A stretch of DNA of 64,000 nucleotides from a virus: positions 84,825 to 148,824 of the IMG/VR virus record IMGVR_UViG_3300035665_003403; one strand, written 5' to 3'. Under the pieces are notes generated by a model that was not told where the DNA came from, made no database searches, and was given only the letters and a program-made list of their open reading frames with translations. The translations under genes were made by a program, and so were the position numbers. Positions 28,223-46,549 of this stretch are shown here, in pieces. Each line of letters begins with the position of its first letter. The stretch's first letter is position 1.

Positions 28223-30049
28223 TTATTTTAGTAAAAATTTATTTAAATTTTCTATTAGTACTTTGTTTTTATTATCACTAACATCTTCTCTAATGCTTGA
28301 ATTCATTGGCTTTTCATTAAATATATAAGCTCCTGGAGTACTAGGTGTGCTTACTATATCCCAACAAATAATTTCGAAGTCATCTTGAACAATATTTTGT
28401 CCTTTAACCTCTTTAAGACTACCAATCCCTCTAGATGATACTCCAATCTTAATTTTATTTCTTAATAAATTTGCTATATCATCACCCTTTGTTGATACAA
28501 TACCATAATTAATAAATCCTGGTGTCATCAGTATTTCCATCTTACCCATCAATGCGTTACCTTCCCACCATGTTTCAATGATGTTATGTGATACTCTATC
28601 TAACGAAATAACAGAGTCCTCTGGGTGATTACAATTGTGTGTCCAAACTATCTTATTATTTTGTTTCATTAACCAAGTTTTATTTGGAACGGAAACACAA
28701 TAAACAAAATCATTGTGTGGTATTAACTCAACTTTTGTAAATCTATTATCCAAATAAATACCCTTACCTGTTCTTTCTCTGATAATATTTAATTCTTTAC
28801 TATTCGAAGCTTTAATCAATCTAGGAACTCTTTTATTTACCTTAGTCAAAACTAATTCACCATCAACTTCAGTTTCAATAAATTCTCTTTTAATATCATA
28901 TATTAATCTATCTTTTGGTATAATCTTATTACATGTAGCACCACTACCAATTTTCAACATTACTTCTAAAACATCATCTTTTAATTTAGTTGATGTTGTA
29001 CAATATTCTTTGATAAGAATTCCTTTACTACTTGAACTATTCTTCCCATCACCAATTAATAACCATTTTAGTAATATGTTTAATAATCTAGGTGACCAAT
29101 TTTTAGCGTACTCTGGTATAAATTTATTGTGTGAATCACCCAAAACCTTTAAATGGTTATGTAGTTTTTCATTAGTCACTGTAAATTGTCTATCACCATA
29201 TAATTTAAAATTAAACGGTAATTTCTCTAACAATTCCTTAATTAAATTTTGTTGTTTACTTTTTACTTGGGTAATTGTAACTCTATTTTTATTTTTACCA
29301 CCCTTACTACCATCAGTATGCCCTTCAGATATGAATATACCTAAAAATGCAGCCCAATCTTCAGTTTTTATAGTGATATCAGTATCTGGTATAGTGAAAA
29401 ACTCACTATCATCCCCATCCCAAACCCCAGAGTGTTTAATATGAGAATGTGACACTCTAGAATCCCCATTCAATATTTTATTGTATAACTCTTCACCAGT
29501 TAAAATATATGGTTTATTGGTTCTATCCCATAAAATAACTTTATGATTTTTAGTTATAGTCATATCCAAACCACTTTCATTATAAACCCTAATTAAATCG
29601 TCATCATAATGTTTTTTTATAGTTTTACTAATTGGTTGTACTTCTAATTTATTCGACTCTAAATTAAATGTGAATATCTCATCACCCTCAATTACTGTAT
29701 CAATATCAACCCAACCATTCTTAGTGAATATTTGAGTTTCTTTTGGGACACACTCTCCTATTGCATTTCTATCCTTGATTGCTTGTTGATAAACTAAATT
29801 TTGTTGCTTAAGAATTTGTTCTGGGTATATTCTACCATTTCTATTTAATACACCATATTTTTGTAATAAGACATAAACAATCAATGGGTCTGACATTGAA
29901 CCCAAGCTGACACCTGATTCCAATTTTTTTATTTCATTAATGAAACCCTGATTTCTTGGTTCTAATGGATTAATAAATCCAGAATCGGATTCAATCAAAT
30001 AACCCCATCCTGTTTCACCCTTCTTAAGAATTTTTGCTTCTTTTATCAT
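28223..30049 (-). CDS. 21: Prohead protease (T4 gp21-like) interrupted by an intein
   Basis: 608 residues, of which 100-472 are an intein. The exteins (235 residues; T4 gp21 has 212) join to read IGEC-NHPEDSVISLDRVSH, with the catalytic His of the HPE motif and the SLDRVSH block, followed by GKMEILMTPGF and KIGVSSRGIGS (catalytic Ser region). This enzyme cuts head proteins at [L/I]xE sites during maturation. The intein separates Cys100 from the HPE motif, so protease activity requires splicing. A promoter-like motif ends 3 bases before the ATG. Confidence 0.9.
   Translation of the reverse strand: MIKEAKILKKGETGWGYLIESDSGFINPLEPRNQGFINEIKKLESGVSLGSMSDPLIVYVLLQKYGVLNRNGRIYPEQILKQQNLVYQQAIKDRNAIGECVPKETQIFTKNGWVDIDTVIEGDEIFTFNLESNKLEVQPISKTIKKHYDDDLIRVYNESGLDMTITKNHKVILWDRTNKPYILTGEELYNKILNGDSRVSHSHIKHSGVWDGDDSEFFTIPDTDITIKTEDWAAFLGIFISEGHTDGSKGGKNKNRVTITQVKSKQQNLIKELLEKLPFNFKLYGDRQFTVTNEKLHNHLKVLGDSHNKFIPEYAKNWSPRLLNILLKWLLIGDGKNSSSSKGILIKEYCTTSTKLKDDVLEVMLKIGSGATCNKIIPKDRLIYDIKREFIETEVDGELVLTKVNKRVPRLIKASNSKELNIIRERTGKGIYLDNRFTKVELIPHNDFVYCVSVPNKTWLMKQNNKIVWTHNCNHPEDSVISLDRVSHNIIETWWEGNALMGKMEILMTPGFINYGIVSTKGDDIANLLRNKIKIGVSSRGIGSLKEVKGQNIVQDDFEIICWDIVSTPSTPGAYIFNEKPMNSSIREDVSDNKNKVLIENLNKFLLK
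28634..29752 (-). mobile_element. Intein with LAGLIDADG-type endonuclease in gp21
   Basis: 373 residues. The splicing N-terminus is Cys (CVPKETQIFTKNGWVDI) with block B-like LDMTITKNHKVIL, and the C-terminus is block F/G (FVYCVSVPNKTWLMKQNNKI, then WTHN) followed by Cys+1. Two LAGLIDADG-like motifs (AAFLGIFISEGHTDG and LKWLLIGDGKNS) indicate a homing endonuclease domain. It is inserted exactly before the NHPE active-site motif, the conserved-site preference expected of a homing intein. Confidence 0.9.
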
Positions 30050-32623: not shown

Positions 32624-35600
32624 TTATAAAATATCGTTAATCTTATTAATCATATCACTCACATTTTCATTAATCAAATTATTCTTTTCACTTACATCAA
32701 AACTATCATTAAGATTTTTGCTAGTTAAATCAAACTTTTTTAGTTTATCATAATTCTCTAATACCAATCGTTCAGTTAGTTGTTCATCATTTCCACTTTC
32801 AACTGTCTCTAAATCACTTTCAGCTGTTTCTAAATCATCAATTGGTTCTTCACCACCTTCGGTACCACCTTCAGTTTCTTCACCCTCATCACCAAAATCT
32901 AAATCACCACTACCTAAGCCTCCACCACCGAAACCACCACCTAAGCCTCCACCACCACCAGAACTTCCACCATCTTCTCCACCTTCACCCCCTGCTGAAC
33001 CACCTTCTAACGCTTTAGTCATATCACCATAAACTCTATCAACCACATCATATAATCCAGTGTGCTTAATAACACTTGGGGTGTTAGCTAATTCAGTCTT
33101 AGCAGCAAATTCCATTCTTTGTTCCAATAAATCTTGCTTGATATCATCATCAGACCAACCTAATATTTCTCTTTTAGCTCTTGTCATAGACATTACACCA
33201 AAACCATTTCCAGCATCAGATACACTATCCTTATACAACGTAACTTTCTTTTGTTCATTATCAACCCTAAGCATTTCTGATTGTGTTGATGGGTTATTCA
33301 ATGTCAAAGTGAAATTATCCATCTCATCCTCAAATCCTAATAACACCAAATGAATCAAAGCTATCTTATTCAACTCTTGTAACATACATTGTTGAATCCT
33401 ATTAATTGTTCTAGCAAATCTGATATCCTGTAACGCCAAATTCTTACCCTCACCAGTCGTTTCATCAAACCCCAAGAATGACTTGGGTACCCTAATAGCT
33501 GTAAATAAATTTGACCTTAGATACTCAATATCTGAAATTTCTCCAAGATTAGAAGCCCCAGCTAATGTATCAATTGGGTTTGGTGCATCCTCACTTCTTA
33601 CGGGAATAAAGAAATCTTGGTCGTTACTTAACATGTTCATTCTCAGGTCCATTTGCCCAGTCGCTGGGTCATAAGATGGTGTTCTTTTGAACCTATTGGC
33701 TATAGCATCAACATACGCTGGTACGTCTGCCTCATCAATATTACCAACAAATATCTTAAATACTCTTCTCTCAGGTGCCCTTGTAACACGATAGGTTAAC
33801 ATAGCATCTTCAGCTAAACAATTATGTACAACACACCCATTAGCTATAAAATTATGTAAATCAGATTCTACTTCCAAATCCCAAACAGATTCATAATCCA
33901 ATTCAGTTACATCAATAATTTTCTCCAATCTAACATCATCAATTTTATTATTAAAATTAATATATAATTTAAACGAGTCAACCCTAGTTTCAATTTTACC
34001 AGTTTTTACATTAAGTTTTTTACTACCATCTCTTTTTGATATTATACCACAACCAATTCCAGATTGTAAACATAAATGTTTTAAATCGGTTATTAATTTT
34101 TTATTAGCTAAACATATTGTACCATATCTATCAGAACCATCAGCATCAAACAAACCATATATTAATTGTCTTTTGTATTCTAAACTCATATTAAACACCC
34201 ATTTAGGTATTCTTTTTTTAGCAAACCCAGTTTTAAAACCAAGTTTTAAAAAAATATTTTTCAACTCTTTATTTGCAATAGTAACTGATTTACTAAATTC
34301 ACTATGTTTACTAGTTCTTATACTTAAATGTGAATTAAATTTATTTTTAGCGTAATTAATATAAAATTCATTTTGCTCTTCATAAACACCTAAAGCAAAC
34401 CCAATTGTATTGTTATTAATCCAACCATCACCTAACATAAATCCAATAAATCTAGACATTCCAGAATCAATATCATATGTCAAATCAATATTAACTAAAG
34501 ATTTAGTATTATGATAGTATAAATCAAAATCACCAGAATTAAAATTAAACAATTCTATTAACTTATTTAAATATTCATATTTTATTTTACCATTACCTTG
34601 AATAAACCTATGTATGTTTTTATAATCGGATTCATTAATATCTTTTAATTTTTTAACAATCCCAACCCTATCCAATAATTTAGATTTAACCAACCCACTA
34701 TCATTTAGTTTTAAATAATAATCATCACTATCTAATTTTATTGTTTTAACTTTATTTTCATTAGATATTGTTGGTATCACTACTCTATCACTTCCAATTT
34801 TAATTTCGTCAATATTTTTATAAGTAAAATCAATCCCATTATAAACTAAAATTGGGTGATTATCGGTTACATTAATAGAATTATATCTACTCCTTACTTT
34901 GTGAGTTTTTTTAATACCACTCTCCCAAACATCCTTAATTTTTGTAGTAACAATTTTTTTATTTTCGTAATCATATGAAAATATGGAGTCACCAGGTTTA
35001 AGATTTTTTATTTTTTCATATCCATCAGTTGTCCAAATATGTGTGTTTTCGCTAACACATAATTGTCTCCATATACGTCTTGCTTTTTCGAGCATTGACG
35101 TACCATAGGGAAGTTTTCTATCATCTGAAAGCATTCTAAAGTGGGCCATTTGCCAAGAAGTAAACTCAATATTCTGTGTTCTCCAAAGGAATTTTATATT
35201 TTCACTATTAGTAGAATTAAACACTCCATTCAACACACCTTCTCTTCTTTCCATTTCGAAATTAGGCATTTGCTTTGCACCCATAATTCCCTTGTCTTTA
35301 TCGATATTAAGAGCAACAAAATTATCACCATATTTTACAACATTTCTAGTCCACATTGGCAACGATGTATGTAAATCTAATCTATTAAAAAATAAATCCT
35401 CCAAAACTGTCTTTACTCTTTTGCTTTCAGAATATATATTCATCATTTTTCCTTGATGATTTAGTGTAACACATTCTTCAGCCATGATATCCATAGCTGC
35501 ACCAATAATTGGAAAGTTCTCCATAGCTTCGAAATCACTATAGGCACCAATTCTTGTTGTTTCGTAAGAAATAGATTGTTGGAATAAACCATTATCTACT

Positions 35601-35797
35601 TTCTTCCAAAGATTATTTAGGTATTTGTTTTGTTGATTGGCTAATAAAGCGGTATCATATTCAGCTTTATTATCAGTCTTTAATAATTGACCTTTAGATA
35701 AATTAAATGTTTGTTGTTTAGGTTCATAAGCTCTAGGCCCATCAGCAGTAAAGACACGACCAAGCTTTTGAAAAACTGTTAATTTTTTATTTTCCAT
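32624..35797 (-). CDS. 20: Portal protein (T4 gp20-like) interrupted by an intein
   Basis: 1057 residues with an intein at 247-659; the spliced product would be 644 residues (T4 gp20 has 524). The N-extein contains SYETTRIGAYSDFEAMENFP and MDIMAEECV, and the C-extein LAEDAMLTYRVTRAPERRVF and FARTINRIQQ, conserved gp20 blocks. The extra length is a C-terminal Gly-rich tract (GGEGGEDGGSSGGGGGLGGG and further) followed by an acidic stretch. The portal forms the dodecameric packaging ring. The intein interrupts the conserved RRIWRQL-CLAEDAM junction. Confidence 0.9.
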   Translation of the reverse strand: MENKKLTVFQKLGRVFTADGPRAYEPKQQTFNLSKGQLLKTDNKAEYDTALLANQQNKYLNNLWKKVDNGLFQQSISYETTRIGAYSDFEAMENFPIIGAAMDIMAEECVTLNHQGKMMNIYSESKRVKTVLEDLFFNRLDLHTSLPMWTRNVVKYGDNFVALNIDKDKGIMGAKQMPNFEMERREGVLNGVFNSTNSENIKFLWRTQNIEFTSWQMAHFRMLSDDRKLPYGTSMLEKARRIWRQLCVSENTHIWTTDGYEKIKNLKPGDSIFSYDYENKKIVTTKIKDVWESGIKKTHKVRSRYNSINVTDNHPILVYNGIDFTYKNIDEIKIGSDRVVIPTISNENKVKTIKLDSDDYYLKLNDSGLVKSKLLDRVGIVKKLKDINESDYKNIHRFIQGNGKIKYEYLNKLIELFNFNSGDFDLYYHNTKSLVNIDLTYDIDSGMSRFIGFMLGDGWINNNTIGFALGVYEEQNEFYINYAKNKFNSHLSIRTSKHSEFSKSVTIANKELKNIFLKLGFKTGFAKKRIPKWVFNMSLEYKRQLIYGLFDADGSDRYGTICLANKKLITDLKHLCLQSGIGCGIISKRDGSKKLNVKTGKIETRVDSFKLYINFNNKIDDVRLEKIIDVTELDYESVWDLEVESDLHNFIANGCVVHNCLAEDAMLTYRVTRAPERRVFKIFVGNIDEADVPAYVDAIANRFKRTPSYDPATGQMDLRMNMLSNDQDFFIPVRSEDAPNPIDTLAGASNLGEISDIEYLRSNLFTAIRVPKSFLGFDETTGEGKNLALQDIRFARTINRIQQCMLQELNKIALIHLVLLGFEDEMDNFTLTLNNPSTQSEMLRVDNEQKKVTLYKDSVSDAGNGFGVMSMTRAKREILGWSDDDIKQDLLEQRMEFAAKTELANTPSVIKHTGLYDVVDRVYGDMTKALEGGSAGGEGGEDGGSSGGGGGLGGGFGGGGLGSGDLDFGDEGEETEGGTEGGEEPIDDLETAESDLETVESGNDEQLTERLVLENYDKLKKFDLTSKNLNDSFDVSEKNNLINENVSDMINKINDIL
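33821..35059 (-). mobile_element. Intein with LAGLIDADG endonuclease in gp20
   Basis: 413 residues. It starts Cys (CVSENTHIWTTDGYEKIKNL) with a block B NVTDNHPILV, and ends with the C-terminal splice region DLEVESDLHNFIANGCVVHN before Cys+1. The endonuclease motifs are MSRFIGFMLGDGWI and RQLIYGLFDADGSD, both clear LAGLIDADG helices. It appears intact and inserted in frame; splicing residues (Cys1, His-Asn, Cys+1) are present. Confidence 0.92.
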
Positions 35798-40510: not shown

Positions 40511-40934
40511 CGTACTTTAATTCTTTATGTTTTTCCTTATAATCATAAATATAGTTAAGCTTGAACTCTCTTGAATATAATTTAGCTTCAACACTTTCTA
40601 ATGTCTCACCAAATGCAAATATAACCCTATTTTCAGGGTACTCAATATATTCATCTAAGTTCTCCCATGCTAATGAAATAACTCCATCAACAGCATCCCA
40701 CACAGAAAAATTCGTGCTTTCTTGGATTACATCCAATACTAAATCACCTTCAAATTTACCAACTTTTTTTATGAATCTATTTTTAGGTGGTAACGGTCTT
40801 CCAGCGGCTGGATATGAATCCCAATCTGGACCATCAATATCTTTTATAGTATCAGAAAATATAAACTCATAGATGTTCTTATTATTAAAATCAGAACCCA
40901 ATGAATTAACATATATTAGAAATAATTTGTCCAT
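40497..40934 (-). CDS. Hypothetical protein (145 aa)
   Basis: Residues 30-100 contain DGPDWDSYPAAGRPLPPKNRF and KVGKFEGDLVLDVIQESTNFSVW, an aromatic/Pro-rich segment that looks like a compact beta domain; the end (YDYKEKHKELKY) is basic. It overlaps both neighbours (14 bases downstream, 1 base upstream), so it is part of the same operon as the frameshift gene. Not recognised. Confidence 0.5.
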   Translation of the reverse strand: MDKLFLIYVNSLGSDFNNKNIYEFIFSDTIKDIDGPDWDSYPAAGRPLPPKNRFIKKVGKFEGDLVLDVIQESTNFSVWDAVDGVISLAWENLDEYIEYPENRVIFAFGETLESVEAKLYSREFKLNYIYDYKEKHKELKYDANR

Positions 40935-42927
40935 TAAGCAATGTACATATTTAACTCATACTTTGTAGGCATACCATAAACTTGAATATTCAATTTTTGT
41001 TTAACTACTTTACCATTTTTGTACAAATCTAAAGAGTATTTGTTTGTAACACCTTCATTAGGTTTAGCTGGGCCTGTGGAAATTTGTCTAAACCAATCCC
41101 CCTCATCAATAGTGTAACCTTTAGATGTTGCATATTTTTCAGCTTCATGAACCGCACTAGTGAAACTATCATGGTAAATCTCATATGATGACTCTTTAGG
41201 TGTTTCAGAAACAGCTTTAGGTTTTGGCGCAACAGATGGGTTAACCTTAAAAGGACGTTCTCTCCTTTTAATTTTACCTGGAACTTTGGTTCCTGGGTCA
41301 GTTTTAGGCTTTGTTGTTGGTATTACCTCAGTTTCAGTATTATCTGTACTAAATGTTTCTTTTAATATTTGCATAATATGGTTTTTATCAAAGATACTAT
41401 TTTTTTCTTTAATTTCAAAATCCTCATTTAAATTAACTGATTCCACATTCCCATGTTCATCTGAATAACCACCTTCAGTATCACCATCATACCCAAATTG
41501 ACCCTCCAAGAAATGATACACTTCTTCCATATCATCAGCAGATGTCGATATGTGGTCCACAGCCCAAGCGTGTCCGTTAGCTATCAATGAATCAATTTTT
41601 TCTTTATTCATTGATAATAATTCATTAGTAACGTGATTTATGTTTTTTATATTTTGCCAAAACATATAATTATTGGATTCACGATTATCATCCTCATTAA
41701 TTGGAACACAATTAGGTACTTCTTTCCCATTCTTTTCTTTCATTCCCAATTGTTTATACCCACTCCAACAAGGATTTTGTTCATCCAAGATATCATTTGA
41801 ACCAGGTTGAAACATATTATTACGTTTAGGTTCACCAAAAATACTATTTTCATTTACAGCATCATCACCAAAATCTAACCCATCACCATCTGGTTCTGAC
41901 CCATCCTTTGAATTAGATTCGTCACCCTCTGGTTCTGATTCATCTTTAGAGCCAGATTTTTTAACTTTTTTTATGATATCATTTTGGTCTTCCTCATCCA
42001 TTTCGGATGTATGTGTTGCCGATAAAACTGAGTTTATAGCAAATTTTTCCAATTCAAGATTTGGTGAACCTTGGTCTTGTGTATATTGACGTATTGATTG
42101 ACCTAATTTCCCAGATAATTGTTGAATGTATTTATCTGGCTCTGATGCTTCATCAGCTTCAACACCAGCGTCAAATGGTTCTTTTTCAAATGAAAAATCA
42201 TCACCCGAATTATCAGGTGATGAGGTTGTGGTATTTGTAGGTTGTGGTGCAGCAGCTGGTTGAGCTGGTGCTGGATTAGGGTTTGGAACCTTAAGAGTGA
42301 ATTTTTCCTCTTTGATTACTTCACCGAATAGACTTTTTTTTTTACTTTTGGAGTCAAATCATCTATAATTGTATCGATGTTACCCATTACTTTTGCTATT
42401 GATAAGCCTTTGTGTTCTTTGATAGTTACGGGTTCTTTTCCGTATTCTTTATCTCTCATTTCTTCAATCATAGCTTCATTTTCAGTCAACTCGATATCAG
42501 CTTCTTCCATTTCAATTTCCGATACTATATTTTCAATAATTTCATCATCGTTTTCCAAGATGTTCGTTGATACATTTGTATCCAATGCTTCATTCAATGA
42601 AATAAATTTGAAATTTAATTCTTTGACAGCCTTAGCGTATGAAGGATAAGCTTGGTCTTTTTTGTTTTGTAGACCACCAATGTATTGGAAATCCTCAACA
42701 ACCAAATTTTTCTTTTTGTTTGCTGTCTTGATAAAATACTCGTGGTTTTCTCTAACGATACCATAAATTTTACCATCTGGTCCAATTTTTTGTAGTTCTA
42801 AGACGTAACGACTATTGTTAGTGTTTTCTGGAACTACATTCATTAATTCCATTATTCTATTTTTAACTTCATTACCTTTAAGTGTTAAAGGGTTTACATT
42901 TAATTTGTTTTTCATAATTTTAATCAT
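40934..42927 (-). CDS. Large acidic protein apparently produced by a -1 frameshift (664 aa)
   Basis: Two frames are joined at a run of ten A (reverse strand, 42334-42343). Frame 0 begins at 42927 and, if read straight through, stops at 42316 after 203 residues (MIKIMKNKL...VKKKVYSVK). The -1 frame, closed by a stop 18 bases upstream of the run, stays open from the run to 40934 (KKKSLFGEVIKEEKF...PTKYELNMYIA) and has no ATG until deep inside. Only a -1 slip joins them, giving 665 codons including the stop. The product has a Pro/Ala-rich linker, an acidic Asp/Ser region and a C-terminal globular part. Programmed frameshift, transcriptional slippage or a homopolymer error are all possible. Confidence 0.6.
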
Positions 42928-43190
42928 TAACCTAAAATAACACCAGACCCTAAAGCATAATTACCAGGGGTCATCACATTAATTGGTTCACCTAAGACAT
43001 ACACGTTTGCTGTTGAACTAATACTTCTAACATTAATATATAACGAACTACCAGCATTCATTGTTACAGCAACACCATTTATTGTTGGTGTTGCATTAGC
43101 ACCAGCATAAACCTGAGTATATGTGTGAGCCGTAAAATTAGCGTTTGTTGATAATACTATTATAGAATTTATTTGATTACTAATGGGCAT
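42927..43190 (-). CDS. Small structural-type protein, possible capsid decoration (87 aa)
   Basis: Starts MPISNQINSIIVLSTNANFT and continues with Val/Thr/Asn-rich strands (TPTINGVAVTMNAGSSLYI) and a final PGNYALGSGVILG. It looks like a single beta-sandwich domain of the kind used by small virion decoration proteins. No signal or membrane segment. It lies upstream of the frameshift gene and overlaps its start by 1 base. Confidence 0.55.
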   Translation of the reverse strand: MPISNQINSIIVLSTNANFTAHTYTQVYAGANATPTINGVAVTMNAGSSLYINVRSISSTANVYVLGEPINVMTPGNYALGSGVILG

Positions 43191-43254: not shown

Positions 43255-45078
43255 TTATCGATATAGGGTTAAATTACCTACTAATCTTTTAGAATGATTG
43301 TTAATATCCTTATAAACAATTTCATAAAAATAAATACCCTGTGGTGATTTAACCCCATTATATGTTCCATCCCACCCACTTAAATCATTTGACTCATATA
43401 TTTTTTCACCCCATCTATTAAACAATGATATTGTCAAATCTTTAAAATAAATTCCTTTAGGTTGGAATAAATCATTTAACCCATCATCATTAGGTGAAAA
43501 ACTATTAGGTACAAAGAACGTAGTATATTTACAAGGTTCAACTGTTATAACTAAAGAAACATCTGATAAACACCCATCCTTCTCAGTTATTACCGTTAAT
43601 TCATAAACTCCTATCTTATCAAAATCATATTGAAATATTGGTTGTGAGCCACGCTTAATAACACTACCATTTTTAAATAAAGCCCATGTATAATTAACTT
43701 CTTCATCACCAACAATGGTGTAGTTAAATTTAGTTTTATTATTATCACACAATTCAATAGTTTGATTACTCATGTCTGATATTGATAATAACAATGGGTT
43801 ATCCTTAACTAATATAGATGTTATCCCATTATATGAGCATGTATCCACATTGATAACGTAATCTAATATGTAATTACCACTTCTTGGTGGTGTTAAAATA
43901 TCATTATTAACGTATTGTCCAGACCAATTTATTGTATCCTCACCCGATAATTTTAATTGAGTCGGAAACCCAAAACATATTGGGTCTAGAGTTAATTGTG
44001 TTGGTGGTGTTTTCACCAATATACTAACCGAAGTATCTACTGAACAATTCATATTATCACCTATTAATGTGATAGCATTATAACCATAAGTCAGCAAATC
44101 AATATTAACTGAATCCACGTTACCAACTAATTGACTTCCTAAATACCAAGTAAATGAGTATAATGAATCTGGTGTGGTTACATAATACAATTGATTATAT
44201 GTTGTATCACAAAATTCTGTTGGCCCAATTATATTTGAAATGTTAGGTAGAAATAATAAATCAACATCAATGGTATCTGAATTACAATCATTAGTGTCGG
44301 TAGCGAATACTGATAAGTTAGATGTCAAGATGTTTTGGTACGGAATTGTTATTGAATCACCAATATAAACCGTACCTGGAGGTGTTAGAGTCCATGTAAA
44401 AACTAAGTTACTTGTATCTAACATAGTGAACATTTGATTTTCATTATAACAAATTAATGAATCAGTTATTGGTTGTAAATTATATGTTGGACATGGTTGA
44501 CCTATAATAATATTAGGGAAAAGAACCACAGAATCTGGTGGACATGGAAAATTACCAGTGTAACTTCCAGCAACATTATCAGCCAATGGTATTACATTAA
44601 AATTAAGTAACCCACCAATATTATTTCCGACTGTTGCATTTATACAAAAAGTCCAAACACAATTTCCTTGGTCACCAAAATCATCACCAGGGTTAAGTGG
44701 GTCATTAATTCCATTTATCATCCCAATTCCAGATTCAAAGAAAAATCCTGGACCAAAACTTTGAAATGGAAATACAGTCGATGTAGTTTGATTAACCCAA
44801 ACCCAATTCCCAACACCACCATTACAATTAACTGGAAATGATAATGGGGTTACACTATTCCAATTATTTGATAAATTAAAATCAAACCCCTCAAACCAAT
44901 TAATACCCACCATTGTAAAAGAATTTAATGTTACACATATTTGAACATTTGTGTTTGGTAAGTAATAATTATTATTAATTGGTGGTGGGGTTATCGTGTA
45001 TGTTATTGGTCCAAAACAAGGTTGAGATATTACCGAATTTGATATTAACAATAACAAGATAAAAATTATTTTTTTCAT
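43255..45078 (-). CDS. Secreted surface protein with type IX secretion (type B) C-terminal domain
   Basis: 607 residues. A clear Sec signal peptide (MKKIIFILLLLISNSVISQ) is followed by about 490 residues of Cys-, Asn- and Thr-rich Ig/PKD-like beta domains, for example CSVDTSVSILVKTPP. The C-terminal ~92 residues (FFVPNSFSPNDDGLNDLFQP, then FNRWGEKIYES, GWDGTYNG and SPQGIYFYEI) are the gliding-motility-associated/T9SS type B sorting domain found only in Bacteroidota. The product should be exported and attached to, or released from, the infected host's surface. A phage-type promoter motif lies upstream. Confidence 0.85.
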   Translation of the reverse strand: MKKIIFILLLLISNSVISQPCFGPITYTITPPPINNNYYLPNTNVQICVTLNSFTMVGINWFEGFDFNLSNNWNSVTPLSFPVNCNGGVGNWVWVNQTTSTVFPFQSFGPGFFFESGIGMINGINDPLNPGDDFGDQGNCVWTFCINATVGNNIGGLLNFNVIPLADNVAGSYTGNFPCPPDSVVLFPNIIIGQPCPTYNLQPITDSLICYNENQMFTMLDTSNLVFTWTLTPPGTVYIGDSITIPYQNILTSNLSVFATDTNDCNSDTIDVDLLFLPNISNIIGPTEFCDTTYNQLYYVTTPDSLYSFTWYLGSQLVGNVDSVNIDLLTYGYNAITLIGDNMNCSVDTSVSILVKTPPTQLTLDPICFGFPTQLKLSGEDTINWSGQYVNNDILTPPRSGNYILDYVINVDTCSYNGITSILVKDNPLLLSISDMSNQTIELCDNNKTKFNYTIVGDEEVNYTWALFKNGSVIKRGSQPIFQYDFDKIGVYELTVITEKDGCLSDVSLVITVEPCKYTTFFVPNSFSPNDDGLNDLFQPKGIYFKDLTISLFNRWGEKIYESNDLSGWDGTYNGVKSPQGIYFYEIVYKDINNHSKRLVGNLTLYR

Positions 45079-45092
45079 AGTTGTAATTTTAT

Positions 45093-45100
45093 TATAAATA
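45093..45100 (-). promoter_or_regulatory. TATTTATA promoter-like motif before the T9SS-tagged gene
   Basis: 14 bases before the start at 45078. A phage-type motif here argues the gene is integrated in the phage programme rather than a stray host gene. Confidence 0.5.
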
Positions 45101-45543: not shown

Positions 45544-45722
45544 AATTCGTGTATAAAATAATCATTATTTGGTTCGTGGTCATTATCAGCTAAAAAATCC
45601 CTACATAAATCAGCAACCCATTTTTCTTGAAAACAACCTAGTGGTTTTTCTTCAGATACCTCACCAGTATCTGGATTAGTATATGTCTTAGTTAAAACTA
45701 ATTTAATTTCAAAGTCTTTCAT
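45540..45722 (-). CDS. Small protein in the thymidylate synthase operon (60 aa)
   Basis: Starts MKDFEIKLVLTKTYTNPDTG, has a single Trp and Cys (GCFQEKWVADLCRDF) and an acidic tail (DNDHEPNNDYF). ATGA overlaps join it to thymidylate synthase upstream and the HAD gene downstream. Unknown, possibly a regulatory subunit. Confidence 0.6.
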   Translation of the reverse strand: MKDFEIKLVLTKTYTNPDTGEVSEEKPLGCFQEKWVADLCRDFLADNDHEPNNDYFIHEL

Positions 45723-46549
45723 ATAGCAATTTCTAATTTGGTACTCAATGGTTGAATCCCATTAATACCTGTTATTGTAAAATCATCGATAGTATAATCA
45801 TAAAAGTTTTTATTTTCATTTAAGATTAACTTAGGTTGAATATCTAATGGTGTTCTACTTAATAGTTCATCTAATGCATCCATATGTCTATCATATACAT
45901 GTAAATTTTGAGTCAAGTGAACAAATGTACCAACCTTATAACCACAATGCCCAGCAATCATCATAAGCAACGCAACATATTGGATTTTATTGATTGCGCC
46001 AGCTGTCACATAATCATTACTTCTTTGAAGTAAAGTCATATCCAAATACAATTCATCACCAATTGACCTAACTGACCATAGTGTTTCGTAAGCACATGGA
46101 TTCAACCCTTTGCTTAGATTAAGGTCAAATTGTTGATACATGTTCAAGATATGTCTTCTACCAAATGGGTCATTAACCAAGCCATCTAGTAGGGTGTTCA
46201 TTAAATCCCATCTTCTAACAGTTTCACCATATCTACTCCCTATGGTTCCATCACCAATATCCCATTCATCCCACCAATTAATACCTAATTCTCTAGCAAC
46301 TTCTAAGCTATTAGATTGCTTTTGATAAATCCAAAACATTTCTCTAATTCCAGTCTTTACTGCTGTGTTTCTAAGTGTTGGAATTGGGAATTCCCCATTC
46401 TTTATATTATAAGTTTCAAATACCTGAGTAATGAATTTACTATGGGCTGGAGTTCCATCACTCCATTTAGGTCTTGGGTCTTGGTCCCAACAACCATATT
46501 CTTTAATTGTGGCAAGATTATTTAAATAATACCAATCTGCTTTGTTCAT
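45719..46549 (-). CDS. thyA: Thymidylate synthase / dUMP (hydroxy)methyltransferase
   Basis: 276 residues, typical length for ThyA. The catalytic Cys lies in LNPCAYETLW, the phosphate Arg/Ser in LLQRSND, the conserved Asn in AINKIQYVALL and the sugar-binding His/Tyr in NLHVYDRH; the C-terminus EIAI matches the family. The Asn (not Asp) at the N177-equivalent position indicates a dUMP, not dCMP, substrate. It methylates dUMP to dTMP or, like SPO1-type enzymes, hydroxymethylates it; the sequence alone does not decide. Confidence 0.88.
   Translation of the reverse strand: MNKADWYYLNNLATIKEYGCWDQDPRPKWSDGTPAHSKFITQVFETYNIKNGEFPIPTLRNTAVKTGIREMFWIYQKQSNSLEVARELGINWWDEWDIGDGTIGSRYGETVRRWDLMNTLLDGLVNDPFGRRHILNMYQQFDLNLSKGLNPCAYETLWSVRSIGDELYLDMTLLQRSNDYVTAGAINKIQYVALLMMIAGHCGYKVGTFVHLTQNLHVYDRHMDALDELLSRTPLDIQPKLILNENKNFYDYTIDDFTITGINGIQPLSTKLEIAI

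Follow-up and report, generated by a model that had tools for sequence, protein, structure and literature searches.

A phage-encoded single-chain protein with predicted type IX secretion signals and its three-gene relatives

Why would a phage encode a protein bearing the sorting signals of the type IX secretion system (T9SS), and what might such a protein do on an infected cell? The question is raised by one gene in a 64,000-nt stretch of viral DNA (hereafter the window; positions 84,825 to 148,824 of IMG/VR record IMGVR_UViG_3300035665_003403). Bacteroidota phages are abundant, and to our knowledge hardly any work has addressed how they interact with the secretion system particular to this phylum.

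The gene lies on the minus strand (43255..45078, ATG start) and encodes a 607-aa fused protein whose parts are all predicted from sequence. Residues 1-18 (45025..45078; MKKIIFILLLLISNSVIS) form a typical Sec signal, called by a simple hydrophobicity rule as were all signal peptides in this study, and are followed by Gln19, as predicted by the Bacteroidetes Q-rule, which places a Gln after the Sec signal peptide (PMC5837995). A beta-sandwich tip domain (residues 19-200; 44479..45024) is followed by a middle Ig/PKD-like region (residues 201-435; 43774..44478) with weak PKD matches, a penultimate Ig-like domain (residues 436-522; 43513..43773) and a T9SS type B C-terminal sorting domain (CTD; residues 523-607; 43258..43512). 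In profile searches these last 85 residues score 56.7 bits against TIGR04131 (E=2e-15; curated cut-off 35 bits), and the CTD scores 62.9 bits against CHU_C (PF13585; cut-off 27). The profile search finds no SprB repeats (PF13573) in the protein, and the record of the window phage has no match to PF18962, the type A sorting domain (PF18962/TIGR04183 class). The window gene is the sole type B match in a scan of the entire 148.8-kb virus record. Its GC content (0.302) matches that of the window (0.287), and a second IMG/VR contig carries an identical gene (100%) with its neighbours in the same context.

An earlier note on this DNA had proposed both a signal peptide and a gliding-motility-type CTD. 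Both are borne out, the former by the Sec-type N-terminus with its Q-rule Gln and the latter by a TIGR04131 score that is significant and above the curated cut-off, one of the results on which that note had staked its claim. Its broader prediction, a phage-encoded type B substrate destined for the exterior of a Bacteroidota host, passed all of the sequence tests that were run. What it missed were the three-part fusion, the conserved C-terminal tails, the tail-module sites and the absent shuttle described below, and its text gives neither the fusion nor the minus strand.

The window contig is that of a T4-like phage with a T4-type portal, TerL, prohead protease and major head protein. Its best named TerL relative is a Flavobacterium phage (30.7%), and the host is presumably a member of the Bacteroidota, an assignment read only from this relative and the T9SS signal. 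Across a sample of 65 loci of TerL relatives, the kept gene order runs ClpB-like, KTSC-type, thyA, a variable slot, an 87-aa protein, several conserved genes, TerL and portal. In the window phage the slot holds the window gene plus two small ORFs, between a conserved upstream border, the thymidylate synthase gene (45719..46549, minus strand; PF00303, E=1.2e-58), and a downstream border, the gene for the conserved 87-aa small protein (42927..43190, minus strand), whose synteny is kept in TerL relatives and in L122/L123. Most TerL relatives have small ORFs or nothing at all in the slot; the window gene is missing there and is therefore accessory, its presence and place not being kept in all close relatives as those of a virion-structural gene would be. 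L122/L123, neighbour-gene relatives of the window phage, carry in the same slot a split, three-gene cassette with another tip type.

Other occupants of this slot are a second exported family of ~490 aa (L022 14-1093, 5' cut; L023 2944-4419; L048 3100-4587), with a type A-like C-terminus that scores below the PF18962 threshold, and DUF285-like surface-repeat frames apparently split into several pieces (L069 1503-3356). Elsewhere in the window, the portal (32624-35797) and prohead protease (28223-30049) genes contain one intein each with a LAGLIDADG-like part, and the portal intein is missing at that place in most relatives' portal. The protein encoded at 40934-42052 and its relatives share the short motif CW.GYKQ.GMKEKNGKEVPNCVPI, in a stretch common to several PHROGs of unknown function, and some of the relatives carry portions of the protein in duplicate.

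The claim that a promoter-type motif precedes the gene also stands. The promoter-like motif TATTTATA (45093..45100, minus strand) is located 22 nt upstream of the window gene ATG, and 14 of 76 genes have the same 8-mer within the 70 nt that precede them, compared with 1.2 expected from its overall frequency and a mean of 2.3 (maximum 8) in shuffles. The enrichment is strand-specific (14 versus 3 on the opposite strand of the same stretches), and the motif, or a 7-base core of it, is likewise found ahead of the portal, terL, protease and 87-aa genes. Because the motif is shared with virion genes and many cassettes lie in virion modules, late expression of the cassette is suggested.

Given established T9SS knowledge, a signal peptide together with a CTD would imply export by Sec and then by the T9SS. 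Type B CTDs as a class have five conserved motifs, A-E. Type B export in F. johnsoniae requires PorP/SprF-like shuttles, which are scarce and used stoichiometrically, and a type B cargo that is overproduced stays unsecreted if its shuttle is missing; a shuttle gene beside the substrate is common, not obligatory, and orphan substrates exist (PMC12618676). PorP/SprF-like shuttles also anchor type B cargo (PMC9143113). No PorP/SprF gene (PF11751) was found in the record of the window phage or in 41 of the 42 other carrier phage records, compared with 12 and 13 copies in two bacterial controls. Export of the phage protein, if it takes place, must therefore rely on a shuttle supplied by the host. 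In the one exceptional record, L156 (G286), a PorP/SprF gene lies directly downstream of the CTD protein gene, which is the bacterial layout, and this contig is possibly host DNA within the viral collection.

The three parts of the window protein are usually found as separate genes. Among the 71 IMG/VR loci with a tip domain that run far enough, 67 have a split form of three consecutive genes, whose products are about 197 aa (tip), 187 aa (middle) and 188 aa (anchor) long, with the CTD on the anchor alone. The 80 viral tip loci as a whole comprise 67 split loci followed by a CTD gene (48 after deduplication), 9 cut by a contig end and 4 single-chain fusions, one of which is the window gene. 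Gene 1 encodes a homologue of the window tip, the identity reaching 41% across 218 aa (E=2e-37; L111 3534-4136), and the C-terminal 172-aa module of the window protein aligns over its full length with the anchors, which share its penultimate Ig-like domain and CTD (E to 1e-38). The weakest of the three links is that of gene 2 to residues 286-435 of the window middle (E=4e-7; L119/L121 4153-4713). The window protein thus has tip, middle and anchor in the order of the three adjacent genes, and since the same parts recur in the same order both fused and split, they are likely to act as one chain. Q-rule signal peptides are predicted on 37/40 tips, 39/40 middles and 40/40 anchors, compared with 316/922 ORFs overall, and 116 of 120 cassette proteins have [AGSTC]Q at the signal-peptide end.

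Cassettes are often situated between tail tube and baseplate genes, with tail sheath, tail tube or baseplate hub genes nearby in 19/80 tip loci; other sites are near endolysins in a lysis cassette (L092), among connector genes (L094) and in the thyA slot (L123). A terminase (TerL) match is present on 22 of 40 cassette-carrier contigs. A gene directly upstream of some cassettes (L088 2300-3529; L119 2299-3525) encodes a conserved protein of ~409 aa that has a HELTH metallopeptidase-like motif and no PHROG match.

How might the separate tip and middle proteins, both of which are without a CTD, be held to the anchor? They end in a near-invariant C-terminal I-x-H-N tail or a close variant: HN terminates every split tip (67 of the 80 viral tip loci), and at 80 middle-protein loci 66 proteins end in HN and 13 in HD, TN or TD, with a CTD gene following the middle protein in 74/74 uncut loci. 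In phage CTD loci the tail motif is found on 47/140 signal-peptide ORFs versus 7/613 other ORFs and on 0/80 CTD proteins; in bacterial CTD loci it is found on 0/152 signal-peptide ORFs. Because the HN tails replace the interdomain linker, the simplest reading is docking, and the tails may join subunit to subunit. The alternative that the C-terminal HN marks an intein was rejected, as the proteins stop there and HD, TN and TD variants are also seen.

The AF2 model of the tip, built from 12 sequences, is a beta sandwich (pLDDT 77.5, pTM 0.73); a model from a three-row alignment reaches a pLDDT of 53. A Foldseek search of the PDB with the tip model gives nothing at E<=1e-3, and its best weak matches include several to pilin, adhesin and cohesin domains. 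Only one good match exists in BFVD, to a GEVED protein of Virus NIOZ-UU157. The genome search with the tip used the 12-row alignment, the 3-row alignment being too poor, and placed the domain in 119 viral contigs versus 1 of 296 Bacteroidota genomes, where the lone match lies within a 412-aa chromosomal protein resembling a type A cargo. As a lone query, the N-terminal 200 aa of the window protein found no relative in the genome contig search. The middle domain is present in 63/296 bacterial genomes and, among the matches listed, always inside open frames of at least 604 aa. The tip and the stand-alone middle proteins therefore appear essentially virus-specific. In the tree of the C-terminal (anchor) module, the window protein groups with the split anchors L102/L103 (support 94/93), apart from the three other fused proteins. 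In the tip-domain tree the fused rows stay together in 14% of bootstrap trees; more than one fusion event is favoured by this tree, not forced.

Phage type B cargo extends well beyond this cassette. A scan with phage CTDs finds relatives on 415 IMG/VR contigs, and of the 80 that were examined almost every one has a complete CTD as well as a signal peptide. Two size families are prominent, one of ~183-191 aa, which is the third gene of the three-gene set, and one of ~650-820 aa (hereafter F2), which is encoded between the tail tube and the baseplate hub; among the PHROG matches of F2, one is to a Hoc-like head decoration. The F2 member L142, a fused phage protein related to the window protein, contains SprB repeats (PF13573). 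Two metagenomic huge phages carry the closest homologues among annotated phage records, and none of the matches is in a host-assigned Bacteroidota phage isolate. Three different phages encode miniproteins of ~107-116 aa that consist of a signal peptide and a type B CTD with no cargo (L048 968-1318; LR756502.1 597571-597774; LR745206.1 498975-499202), and that of L048 (116 aa) is located upstream of thyA. CTD-only frames are also present in bacterial genomes at low frequency, in an ORF-length comparison that is biased since it was ranked by CTD similarity.

Taken together, the CTD, the signal peptide, the fused and split homology, the conserved tails, the virus association, the lack of a phage shuttle and the common motif, all of them read from sequence, lead us to propose when and how the protein is exported, how its separate homologues dock and what it does. 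Most likely at a late stage of infection, the window protein would enter the periplasm via Sec, the host T9SS would carry it across the outer membrane with the type B CTD as guide, and a host PorP/SprF-like shuttle would retain it at the cell surface, tip domain outward. Where the parts are separate proteins, head-to-tail docking by I-x-H-N would allow the tip and middle, which have no CTD, to leave the cell with the CTD-bearing anchor; in the window phage a covalent fusion would take the place of docking. We therefore consider it probable that the window protein is a single-chain, phage-specific tip-middle-anchor appendage, exported by the host T9SS and adhesin-like at the infected-cell surface. 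Its most likely action is adhesin-like binding that would alter phage or cell contacts there, with the exclusion of further phages, or progeny kept from re-adsorbing, as candidate outcomes. We regard exclusion as the most likely role, while the evidence separates none of host-surface modification, exclusion and attachment. A broader proposal, which we advance tentatively, is that hundreds of phages use a multi-subunit appendage, in which CTD-less subunits polymerise or dock by I-x-[HT]-[ND] tails, ride on one type B anchor by way of host shuttles and remodel the surface; the tail joins could be either non-covalent or a covalent cross-link.

The export signals themselves could instead be what matters. 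Phage cargo might saturate the host PorP/SprF shuttles or the translocon and so block host adhesins such as SprB, a part of the gliding machinery and a possible phage receptor; the signal peptide and CTD would then be the active parts, and the cargo domains would matter little. Type B shuttles are low in abundance and stoichiometric (PMC12618676), the phages are without a shuttle of their own, many of their cargos are just 183-191 aa, and the miniproteins of L048, LR745206 and LR756502 dispense with cargo altogether. However, the window protein retains a conserved tip and several Ig-like domains, the split phages keep two extra CTD-less exported subunits that a mere sink would not need, and CTD-only frames also turn up, infrequently, in bacterial genomes. 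We judge such a shuttle sink rather unlikely.

The placement of many cassettes inside the tail-gene module keeps a virion-linked role alive, in which the proteins would be tail or decoration components built into the particle and the Ig-like CTD would be reused as a structural domain. The tail sheath, tube and baseplate hub genes near 19/80 tip loci, the same tail-module place of the fused F2 family and the one F2 match to a Hoc-like head decoration all agree with this role, but the Q-rule signal peptides of cleavable type on all parts would take them out of the cytoplasm, where virions assemble. The gene is moreover accessory, its slot lacking it in most TerL relatives, and the place of the cassette varies among lysis cassette (L092), connector genes (L094) and, in the window phage, thyA slot; we regard a virion component as unlikely. 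Capture of a host passenger gene (a moron), or host contamination, with no phage-specific design, is very improbable: type B cargo is indeed a Bacteroidota protein class, and the CTD-PorP layout of L156/G286 is bacterial and may be host DNA, but conserved phage genes flank the window gene on both sides in two contigs, its composition fits the phage, its C-terminal module groups with phage anchors, and the tip is in 119 viral contigs versus a single one of 296 Bacteroidota genomes.

If the single-chain appendage proposed above is real, many Bacteroidota phages would bear a dedicated modular surface device that exploits the host T9SS, offering a natural probe of T9SS shuttle choice and a new candidate mechanism for exclusion or adsorption control. 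The split forms would possibly represent the first piggyback subunit export by the T9SS, that is, co-export of an assembled complex. With fused and split pairs and conserved tails to compare, the idea of assembly lends itself to direct tests in a laboratory Flavobacterium.

Phage T9SS cargo and Q-rule exported phage proteins have been noted before. Our search of an open-access library turned up no description of a phage cassette of type B, of the split and fused architecture or of HN tails. The T9SS type A cargo of Cryophage (Bellas et al. 2020, PMC7468147) resembles the window protein in that it is phage-encoded, bears T9SS sorting domains and belongs to variable islands of the genome; host surface change or superinfection exclusion was likewise proposed for it (PMC7468147). 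Its type A signals are, however, on enzymes and a PA14 protein, and the parts of that report drawn on here describe no type B CTD, three-part cassette or HN tails (PMC7468147). In gut BACON phages, T9SS sorting domain proteins similarly lie beside phage head genes, but they are tied to BACON domains and appear as a side remark, with no analysis of a cassette or of export (PMC6949934). P. gingivalis phages carry genes with Q-rule signal peptides whose products are proposed modifiers of the host envelope, although no T9SS signal is described for them (PMC10367356). The bacterial type B adhesins SprB and PG1035 share with the window protein a Sec signal peptide, Ig/PKD-like modules and a TIGR04131 CTD, and presumably the same route of export and PorP/SprF anchoring (PMC9143113, PMC12618676). 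In contrast to these bacterial proteins, which have dedicated shuttles often encoded next door (PMC9143113, PMC12618676), the window protein is phage-encoded and shuttle-less and has homologues that are separate subunits with HN tails.
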